DNA from: an uncultured Chloroflexota bacterium | GTDB taxonomy: Bacteria; Chloroflexota; Dehalococcoidia; Lucifugimonadales; CAJXCD01 | Assembly (NCBI GenBank): GCA_913051545.1 | Contig: CAJXCD010000002.1 | Span: forward strand, 62,001 to 126,000 | Reading direction: 5' to 3' | Length of the DNA stretch: 64,000 nt | Notes under the pieces: model-generated | The model's input: the letters and a program-made list of their open reading frames with translations, nothing else | Database searches by the model: none | What the model was told of the DNA's origin: nothing | Position numbers and translations under genes: made by a program | In this document: positions 1,046 through 14,846 of the stretch, one piece after another | Layout: each line of letters starts with the position of its first letter | How positions within the stretch are numbered: the stretch's first letter is position 1

Positions 1046-1227
1046 TCAGACCACTTAAATACAGATTCACGCTATTTTAGCATAAGATCATTCTCAAGTT
1101 GTAAGATATCATTACAGGGTTATTTTTCTTACACCCTCGTGCGAATTAACCTGATTTTAGAGTGTTGGTAGTTATTGGGTACACCCTCTGGGTTATAATA
1201 CCGGGGAAAGATTTGGAGGCCAAAGAT

Positions 1228-2601
1228 ATGGCGGCCGAGTTCCGAAAATTACCCAGCGTAGATAGTATCCTGTCGGATGAGAGGATAAAGGATCTTAGTG
1301 ATAAATACTCTCGCCTAGTAGTAGTTTCGGTTGTTAGAACTCAACTCGATTATGCAAGGAAATTATTAAAGGAGGGTGGTCACTTACTTGAAGTCGAAGA
1401 GCTTGTGACATCAGTTTTAGATAGTGTAAATCAACATTGGTTTCCATCACCTATCCAAGTTATTAATGCTACCGGCGTTATTTTACATACCAATCTTGGG
1501 CGCGCTCCTTTGTCTATTGAGGCGTTGGATTCCATCCGTCAGTCAAGTATGGGTTACAGTGACTTGGAATTCGATACCGGTACCGGACGTAGAGGTTCAC
1601 GACACTCCTACGCAGCAAGAATTTTGTCCCATCTAACTGGTTCCGAGTCCGCTATCGTAGTAAACAACAATGCATCTGCAATTATGTTAGGACTAGTAGC
1701 TATAGCATCTGGGTCAGAAGTTATTGTCTCTCGCGGGGAGTCTCTTGAAATAGGTGGTGGGTTCCGCATTCCGGACGTTTTAAAACAAAGTGGTGCTACT
1801 CTGATAGAGGTTGGAACTACAAACCGCACTTACGTTAACGATTATGAGGATGCCGTATCTGATCGCACTGGGGCGATTTTGTCTGTGCACTCCAGTAACT
1901 TTAAAGTTACTGGATTCACGCATTCACCATCTCTATTAGAATTGGTAAACCTTGGTCGTAAACATAACATTCCCGTTCTTCATGACCTGGGAAGTGGTTC
2001 ATTGATTGACACTTCGTTATTCGGCTTAGCTCATGAGCCAATGCCTCAGGAGAGTATTGCCGCGGGAGCGTCACTATCCTTCTTTTCCGGGGACAAGTTA
2101 CTAGGTGGTCCACAAGCGGGAATTATAGTAGGGGGTGAAGAGTATGTGTCGAAAGTTGCTAATCATCCTATAGCTAGAGCTGTTAGGATAGACAAACTTA
2201 GTTTATCAGCCCTTACTGCCACGCTCCTTGCGTATTTGAGAGACGATGTTATCTCAGTAGTTCCTGTGTGGGCAATGATTTCTGAAAAAGTTGATGCAAT
2301 TGGTGATAGGGCAAGAAATTGGAATCGGATCTTGGGAAATAAATATGAGGTTGTTGAAGGTTATTCAACTGTAGGAGGAGGGAGTCTGCCTGATCAACAG
2401 CTTCCTACTTGGTTGCTATCCATAGACCCAAGTCCTGACGGGTCAGATTCTTTAAGTGCCGCTTTGAGGAATGCTTATAAACCTGTTATATCTAGAATTG
2501 AAAACGATCGAATATTGCTAGACCCTCGTACAGTTTTGCATGACCAAGATGACGATCTGCTAGATGTAATAAAATCGGTGTTGCTAAGAACACAGTCCTA
2601 A
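1228..2601 (+). CDS. selA: L-seryl-tRNA(Sec) selenium transferase
   Basis: VINATGVILHTNLGRAPLS, VNNNASA, SGDKLLGGPQAG (PLP lysine). Start moved from 1162 to ATG 1228 (MAAEFRKLPSVD). Confidence 0.95.
   Translation: MAAEFRKLPSVDSILSDERIKDLSDKYSRLVVVSVVRTQLDYARKLLKEGGHLLEVEELVTSVLDSVNQHWFPSPIQVINATGVILHTNLGRAPLSIEALDSIRQSSMGYSDLEFDTGTGRRGSRHSYAARILSHLTGSESAIVVNNNASAIMLGLVAIASGSEVIVSRGESLEIGGGFRIPDVLKQSGATLIEVGTTNRTYVNDYEDAVSDRTGAILSVHSSNFKVTGFTHSPSLLELVNLGRKHNIPVLHDLGSGSLIDTSLFGLAHEPMPQESIAAGASLSFFSGDKLLGGPQAGIIVGGEEYVSKVANHPIARAVRIDKLSLSALTATLLAYLRDDVISVVPVWAMISEKVDAIGDRARNWNRILGNKYEVVEGYSTVGGGSLPDQQLPTWLLSIDPSPDGSDSLSAALRNAYKPVISRIENDRILLDPRTVLHDQDDDLLDVIKSVLLRTQS
1891..1914. repeat. 24-bp perfect palindrome inside selA
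   Basis: TCCAGTAACTTT|AAAGTTACTGGA read directly. Confidence 0.9.
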
Positions 2602-12643: not shown

Positions 12644-13141
12644 ATGAATATAGAGATCAACTATTGCCCGCGCTGTGGTAATAAACTGGTTAACAAGGGT
12701 GCTTCTGTACGATCTAGACCATCGTGTACAGATTGTGGGTATGTGGTGTATCTAGATCCGAAGCTTGCTACGGTGGTACTGATTTCGGTAGGTGACGAAT
12801 TGGTTTTAGTCCGGCGAGCAATAGAGCCGCAAATAGGACGCTGGAGTTATCCTGGAGGATATGTAGATCGTGGAGAAACAGTAGAGGCAGCAGCCGTACG
12901 TGAGGTGAAAGAAGAAACGACTTTGGATGTTAGCCTCACTGGATTTATAGGTCTTTACTCAAGTTCTAATAGGCCGGTTGTTATAGCAGCATATTCTGCT
13001 GAGGTGATAGGTGGCACTCCATCCGCAGGAGAAGAAGTTCAGGAGATCTCTTTATTTAGACCATCAGATTTACCGGAAATGCCTTTCCCGCATGACGATC
13101 AAATTTTAGCGGATTGGTATTTACTAACAGATGATGGCTAG
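12644..13141 (+). CDS. NUDIX hydrolase with N-terminal zinc ribbon
   Basis: NYCPRCGNKL...CTDCGYVVYLDPK; Nudix box GGYVDRGETVEAAAVREVKEET. Confidence 0.92.
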   Translation: MNIEINYCPRCGNKLVNKGASVRSRPSCTDCGYVVYLDPKLATVVLISVGDELVLVRRAIEPQIGRWSYPGGYVDRGETVEAAAVREVKEETTLDVSLTGFIGLYSSSNRPVVIAAYSAEVIGGTPSAGEEVQEISLFRPSDLPEMPFPHDDQILADWYLLTDDG

Positions 13142-13590
13142 GTGTCTATCTGGTTTACGGATCTAACGGTAATATCAATAGGAATAGTTTTTTCCAATAT
13201 CCTGTGTATACGGCACCGGCTTGCTATGTAATTCATCCTGTCCAACTGTTCTGAATTAAGGTCAGAGGTTATCTCAATGTCCATTTGGATTCGATCATAA
13301 AAACCTTTATTGACTTCCTCTGAATCGCCAGAGGGCCCTTGATAAAATTGATCATGAGTGCATTTGATAACGAGTGAATATATGTCCCAGATTTTTCTCC
13401 TCGCGTACAGGAGGAGTGTCATCGATGTTCAGGTGCTTAAGGAAGCTAAAAGGACTTCAAATGGACTGGGTCCTTTGCTGCCTCCTGAGGTCTTGAATTC
13501 ATCTGTGACAAAGGTGTGATGTGGAGTTTCCGCGATGTGTTGCATGTCCCGCATATTTCGCACAGTAACTGTGTGTGATTCCGTCTTCAT
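13138..13590 (-). CDS. OsmC-family protein with in-frame TGA (predicted selenocysteine, residue 54) at the reactive Cys position
   Basis: Manual translation MKTESHTVTVRNMRDMQHIAETPHHTFVTDEFKTSGGSKGPSPFEVLLASLST-[TGA]-TSMTLLLYARRKIWD...YIASRCRIHRILEKTIPIDI; the ORF track lists only 13138..13422; SD-like GAGGGG upstream of ATG at 13590. Confidence 0.85.
13397..13416 (-). promoter_or_regulatory. Candidate bacterial SECIS hairpin downstream of TGA (13429..13431)
   Basis: TGA-ACATCGATGACA-CTCCTC-CTGTACGC-GAGGAG; 6-bp GC-rich stem, GU in apical loop, loop G 21 nt after the TGA. Confidence 0.7.
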
Positions 13591-13598
13591 AAAACCCC

Positions 13599-14846
13599 TC
13601 ATATATTTCTTGTTATTTTGTCTTTTTTCACGAGATCATATTTTAGTCGTTGTAGAGCCAATATCGCTATTATAGCTATCAAACTAATACTACTAAATCC
13701 AATTACCCATTTGTATGATTCCTGAGAAATATCTAGTATAGTCCCGAAGGTTATTGGACCCAAAACGGCTCCCAAGAGTCCCAATGAAGCTTGTACTGCC
13801 ATAGCTGAACCTATCTTCTCCTTAGGTGTTGAGTCTAGTATGCCACTGGTGTATATGGCAGAATCTGCTGCTGTTGACCAACCATAGACTATTAAAATTA
13901 CACCTATCAAAGGCCACGGGAAACCTCCCGCCCAACCAATTAGCAATGAGCATATACCACTAATAGCGAATATTCTTATTGCTGATGTTAGACGACCCCA
14001 TTTGTCTGATATCGCACCTCCCATTACTGGTCCCAGAGCTCCTAGAGTCAGTGCTATACCTGCAACAGTGGAGCCGATAGCTTCCCCATTTTCAATCCCC
14101 TGGTTAATTAAAATACTTCCAAGCAATATCGGTAGTCCCATTCTAACGCTATATAATTGGAAGGCATGTAAGGAATACCCGAATATAAAATACTTAACTT
14201 GGCGGATTTTTAGTACGGAAAGATCGAGTTTGCCCGGCGTTTCTGTGTGGGGTTTGACAGGTGAGTGTGATCGTATAAGTATGTATAACACAGGTAAGCC
14301 AATAATAGATATAAGAGATAGTAAGAGATATGCTTGTCTCCATTCTAATGTGGTTAAGAGTGCTCCGGTTAAAGCCATAGATATGCTGTGGGCGCCATAC
14401 TGAGCAGTTACAAATATACCTGTCGATATTCCTGTGTATTGAGGATCAAATCGTTCCGATATGATCCTTACACCAGGCATGTACATCCCAACTAAACCAA
14501 CCCCGCATATTCCTCTGAGTACGATGGCAATTATCATATTTTCCGTAATTATTGGGAATAAGATATGAGTTATTATCGAAAGAATTGCTGATCCAAAAAA
14601 AACGGGTTTTGGTCCTACACGATCGGTTAATGGAATTATGAACAGTGCAGATATAAGATATCCAGCTAGATACGCAGAATAAACTACTCCTGCTTGGAAG
14701 TTATTTAAACTCCATTCGTCTTGAATATATCGTAAGGCGGCTACATAGCTGGATATTGGAAGTAAAAGCATAAAAAAAGAAAGCGATAATAGTATTAACC
14801 ATAAAATGTCTTTGCGTGCCACTTTATTTACGCCGTTCATTATCAT
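13599..14846 (-). CDS. MFS transporter
   Basis: Multi-TM; ISSYVAALRYIQDEWSLNNFQAGVVYSAYLAGYLISALFIIPLTDRVGPKPVFF. Confidence 0.88.
   Translation of the reverse strand: MIMNGVNKVARKDILWLILLSLSFFMLLLPISSYVAALRYIQDEWSLNNFQAGVVYSAYLAGYLISALFIIPLTDRVGPKPVFFGSAILSIITHILFPIITENMIIAIVLRGICGVGLVGMYMPGVRIISERFDPQYTGISTGIFVTAQYGAHSISMALTGALLTTLEWRQAYLLLSLISIIGLPVLYILIRSHSPVKPHTETPGKLDLSVLKIRQVKYFIFGYSLHAFQLYSVRMGLPILLGSILINQGIENGEAIGSTVAGIALTLGALGPVMGGAISDKWGRLTSAIRIFAISGICSLLIGWAGGFPWPLIGVILIVYGWSTAADSAIYTSGILDSTPKEKIGSAMAVQASLGLLGAVLGPITFGTILDISQESYKWVIGFSSISLIAIIAILALQRLKYDLVKKDKITRNI

Follow-up and report, generated by a model that had tools for sequence, protein, structure and literature searches.

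The hairpin that directly follows an in-frame TGA on the minus strand of the 64,000-nucleotide stretch of Chloroflexota DNA analyzed here (hereafter, the window) is very probably a bacterial SECIS element, through which UGA54 of an osmC gene would be read as selenocysteine (Sec). Judged at the level of sequence, the hairpin by itself is suggestive, and it is the comparison of its relatives that is decisive. The argument draws on the following features of the window:

1162–2601, plus strand: selA, selenocysteine synthase (TIGR00474, about 526.9 bits; cut-off 267.9)
13138–13590, minus strand: OsmC-family (PF02566) coding sequence of 150 amino acids, with the TGA taken as Sec, from the ATG at 13590 to the stop at 13138 (Pfam PF02566; homologues align across the TGA)
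13213–13215, minus strand: TGC codon of Cys126, presumably the resolving partner of Sec54 (invariant column C126 in alignment A2)
13397–13402, minus strand: 3' arm GAGGAG of the putative SECIS element, nucleotides 27–32 after the UGA, inside the Ala-Arg-Arg codons GCG AGG AGA (fold, pair probabilities)
13403–13410, minus strand: apical region CUGUACGC of the putative SECIS element, with UGUAC at 13409–13405, an optional closing pair C13410–G13404 and C13403 bulged
The same apical positions, 13410–13403, as DNA: loop CTGTACGC (read from the sequence)
13411–13416, minus strand: 5' arm CUCCUC of the putative SECIS element, nucleotides 13–18 after the UGA, Leu-Leu codons (fold, pair probabilities, comparison)
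Between the TGA and the 5' arm, minus strand: spacer ACATCGATGACA, 12 nt (read from the sequence)
13429–13431, minus strand: TGA in frame (Sec54), where OsmC has its catalytic Cys codon (21 distinct genes carry TGA here, and the Cys homologues TGC/TGT)
13599–14846, minus strand: gene for an MFS-type transporter, next to osmC on its upstream side and 8 bases from the osmC ATG (list of open reading frames; NCBIfam MFS hits below cut-off)

When read through the TGA, the window protein passes the gathering cut-off of the PF02566 profile (51 bits against 27.5; E = 2e-13), and an alignment-based structure model with a mean pLDDT of 85 places residue 54 within a long helix that spans residues 43–65. 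On the basis of OsmC/Ohr biochemistry, we take Cys126 to be the likely resolving partner of Sec54. The MFS-type transporter gene and osmC probably form an operon.

An earlier note on this DNA had described the hairpin on the minus strand after the OsmC TGA, and both its sequence and its coordinates proved exact. The 6-bp hairpin CUCCUC-CUGUACGC-GAGGAG, which is directly followed by AAAA, is the minimum free energy (MFE) fold of segments of 33, 51, and 62 nt, and all six stem pairs have probabilities of 0.91–1.0 when as much as 150 nt of upstream and 300 nt of downstream sequence is included; the hairpin is thus the local minimum that the note had expected from an RNAfold-type prediction. Its MFE is −9.0 kcal/mol. 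The note had also drawn a UGUAC apical loop with G in the second position, formed through one further C-G pair next to a bulged C. This loop is plausible, though other than the MFE fold: with the C19–G25 pair and the bulged C, the structure reaches −8.6 kcal/mol, 0.4 kcal/mol above the MFE, and has a probability of 0.33. At the Rfam gathering threshold, the hairpin had no match, and the sole hit was a tRNA-Thr.

According to a published description of bacterial SECIS elements (PMC13188914), these possess a stem of 4–16 bp, a loop of 3–9 nt, a distance of 16–37 nt from the UGA, an MFE of −7.5 or lower, and a G as the first or second nucleotide of the loop. Like this consensus and its type case, the E. 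coli formate dehydrogenase gene fdhF, the osmC hairpin lies directly 3' of an in-frame UGA and within the coding sequence; it has a stem of 6 bp and a loop of 8 nt (or 5 nt) that starts 19 or 20 nt after the UGA and contains GU, and its MFE passes the energy limit. The spacing rule on which the earlier note had relied, about 16–37 nt after the UGA, agrees with the published range, and the hairpin falls inside it. Unlike the consensus, the 8-nt loop of the MFE fold carries its G in the third position; since the G becomes second only in the UGUAC loop, a G in the first two positions depends on the C19–G25 pair over the bulged C. A further difference is that the register of the stem moves by up to one codon among the relatives of the window gene.

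The fold by itself is no proof of the element, because the single-sequence test of the 62-nt segment was null (z = −0.3 against shuffles); the 33-nt segment gave z = −2.9 (3/200 shuffles). Of the 2403 TGAs that the window contains, 29% are followed, within the bacterial SECIS range, by some hairpin of at least 6 bp (GU pairs allowed), but only 1.5% by a fold that reaches −9.0 kcal/mol in the corresponding 29 nt; taken singly, the hairpin is thus moderately unusual. A synonymous-codon control carried out on the window osmC gene alone yielded p = 0.024.

For the comparison of relatives, 98 genomes were searched (the window's own counted); a homologue was present in 26, and TGA stood at the Sec54 codon in 19 relatives. 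Counting distinct hairpin regions, wider searches brought the set to 21 Sec and 97 Cys genes, and alignment A3 was used for the pattern search, as alignment A2 was too diverse for this purpose. The earlier note had pointed to orthologues as the place where the hairpin could be checked: nearly all of the 21 genes with TGA at the catalytic Cys codon keep it, and the 97 Cys homologues are mostly devoid of it. The hairpin is thus conserved together with the UGA and lost in Cys homologues, as is asked of a bacterial SECIS element. All named Sec-OsmC records (L139, L140, L142–L144, and L164) stem from Chloroflexota, and the Cys form occurs in the other phyla sampled. A tree from which the hairpin codons were excluded has seven or more switches of the Sec/Cys label. 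Of three independent pairs on its well-supported branches, the hairpin tracks Sec in an average of 2.7 and shows the opposite pattern in 0.0, so few pairs that this test on the tree is without significance.

We then compared the stability of each hairpin with that of sequences in which the hairpin codons had been redrawn among synonyms according to each gene's own usage. The Sec genes had a mean z of −2.7 (18 of 21 below −1) compared to a mean of −0.3 for the Cys genes (Mann-Whitney p = 4e-8, with related genes treated as independent). When the coding sequences were scanned in three-codon steps, only the segment right after the TGA dipped in the Sec genes (−2.39; all others at least −1.02), and no segment stood out in the same scan of the Cys genes. 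At codons +10/+11, the Arg-Arg pair is spelled (C/A)GG AGR in 13/13 Sec genes versus 2/42 Cys genes (p = 7e-11, uncorrected for kinship). Because this codon-choice signal is separate from the alignment of Cys and TGA codons, the claim of the earlier note that the hairpin independently supports Sec decoding is a fair one.

Both arms of the stem are swapped jointly among the Sec genes. Besides CUCCUC/GAGGAG, we found the stem types UUCGGC/GCCGAA (Leu-Arg/Ala-Glu) and, in the subgroup with the motif UxxT, UGAAGCG/CGCUUCA; a variant, UCCUCC/GGAGGA, lies one codon further on the 3' side. The UUCGGC/GCCGAA and UGAAGCG/CGCUUCA stems carry a UGUAY or GGUAC loop closed by C19–G25, and contiguous stems close the UGUAY pentaloop in L040, L052, and L053 and its GGUAC form in L055–L057. 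C19 and G25 are both present in 14/21 Sec genes versus 18/97 Cys genes (kinship ignored). The dinucleotide G21U22 was found in the loop of 18/21 Sec genes but also in 76/97 Cys genes, where the Met/Leu-Tyr codons yield it as well, and it was dropped as evidence for a SECIS element. There are exceptions among the Sec genes: L036, L039, and L095 possess no loop G at position 21 (CTC, not CTG, precedes the Tyr codon), the hairpin of L095 is weak, and the stem of L052/L053 has a strength that synonymous shuffles also reach.

Since an OsmC-like selenoprotein with a SECIS element was published from the Sargasso Sea in 2005 (PMC1088965), the window element is of a known kind. An OsmC-like selenoprotein with the motif UxxT appears in the GOS list (PMC2398784), and reviews list one OsmC selenoprotein family (PMC9312934, PMC13188914). 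The Sargasso Sea protein (PMC1088965, PMC2398784; NCBIfam NF041052, OsmC_like_Se) shares with the window protein the OsmC family, Sec at the catalytic Cys position, and a SECIS element, putative in the window, right after the UGA. The motif around Sec differs (UTSMTLLLYARRK in the window versus ULLTNLKRYASMK), as do the hairpin arms. L055–L057, which come from the same order as the window genome, pass the NF041052 cut-off of 95 with 138–148 bits, and their hairpin, UGAAGCG-GUA-CGCUUCA, differs from that of the window; judging from motif and score, they would represent the published UxxT family. The window protein, with 46.9 bits, stays under this cut-off and belongs to a separate OsmC subgroup whose Cys forms are widespread. 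As it falls outside NF041052, Sec would be found in two or more subgroups of OsmC. In Dehalococcoidia and other phyla, OsmC proteins of the Cys form, e.g., the C-terminal domain of PDB 9wo1 (profile E = 6e-41), are members of the same protein subgroup; they differ from the window protein in having Cys in place of Sec, and their Arg/Leu codons mostly form no hairpin. In the literature collection searched, nothing on point turned up on OsmC selenoproteins of Chloroflexi or on selenocysteine in SAR202.

In addition to selA, the genome from which the window derives contains selB (339.2 bits) and two selD genes (380.9 and 351.2 bits) outside the window, all scoring over their cut-offs. Both selD genes (L089, G000:C3:95668-96591; L090, G000:C31:5-814) possess a UGA in the HCAGU motif that is followed by a hairpin, with the 5-nt loops CGUGA and GGUCG; this genome therefore has other Sec genes with GU loops. 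No tRNA-Sec was detected in the window's own assembly (92% complete, 31 contigs) by Rfam, by ARAGORN run on the hits, or by two patterns. The sole hit above the cut-off (L001, Rfam RF01852), which passed it narrowly with 47.3 bits, was rejected as a tRNA-Ser, and the remaining listed Rfam tRNA-Sec hits correspond to other tRNAs. A tRNA-Sec with the anticodon TCA was present in 22/25 relatives tested, including 18/19 of those with Sec-OsmC; another Sec-OsmC genome (L037/G046; 93% complete, 8% contamination) is likewise without a detectable tRNA-Sec. We take the gap in the window's genome as presumably missing sequence; a 92%-complete assembly cannot establish absence from the organism. In L066 and L080, which belong to different families, the tRNA-Sec gene directly adjoins a gene for a thioredoxin-like protein.

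The hairpin might be a mere by-product of the protein motif LLYxRRK (CTC CTC ... AGG AGG) and possess no RNA function. Such a view could build on the preservation of this motif in some Cys homologues and on the frequency with which hairpins of at least 6 bp follow TGAs in the window. However, most Cys homologues that encode these amino acids do so with different codons and form no hairpin, the Sec genes depart from synonymous shuffles only at the hairpin site, and the arms of L052/L053 and L055–L057, although derived from different amino acids, still pair (in L052/L053 with the shuffle-level stability mentioned above). We therefore consider a by-product to be very improbable.

Two other explanations gain from the lack of a detected tRNA-Sec in the window's assembly. 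That the UGA is a true stop, arose by mutation in a pseudogene, or reflects an error of sequencing, with the downstream reading frame 13138–13422 as a remnant, would also fit the ATG start that this 94-amino-acid frame has just after the TGA; it is nevertheless extremely improbable, given that 21 genes from many families have TGA at this codon, that the reading frame past it is unbroken and conserved as far as the C-terminus, including the invariant Cys126, and that genes for SelA, SelB, and two SelD proteins of the Sec type are present. Structures 3' of a stop codon can raise readthrough in general, and the hairpin might promote such ordinary readthrough by another tRNA (Trp, Cys, or suppressor) instead of the insertion of Sec. 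The position of the TGA at the catalytic Cys site, the finding of tRNA-Sec in nearly all tested relatives with Sec-OsmC together with an otherwise present Sec pathway, and the GU common to the osmC loops and the SelD hairpins of the window's genome leave this explanation a next to negligible probability.

From the hairpin, its co-conservation with the UGA, and the genes for SelA, SelB, and SelD, all of which are seen in the sequences, we infer how a SECIS element would operate here. SelB carrying Sec-tRNA-Sec would bind the hairpin in the osmC mRNA about 20 nt downstream of the UGA and hand selenocysteine to the ribosome, so that UGA54 would be decoded as Sec. In a thiol peroxidase of the OsmC/Ohr type, the resulting Sec54 would take the place of the catalytic Cys and may, together with the conserved Cys126, reduce hydroperoxides.

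We lean slightly toward the broader interpretation that the OsmC superfamily contains a second selenoprotein lineage, represented by the window OsmC protein and distinct from the catalogued UxxT family, and that Sec and Cys were interchanged several times within one Chloroflexota order; the SECIS element would have been built or lost each time through synonymous recoding of the Leu-Leu and Arg-Arg codons, with the position of the loop held while the arms changed. Our analysis supports a selenoprotein where routine annotation would end the protein at the TGA, and the contrast in synonymous codons between Sec and Cys genes detects SECIS elements without a structural template. Within a single order, the Sec and Cys forms are interleaved and provide a natural set for studying the gain and loss of SECIS elements inside a coding sequence.
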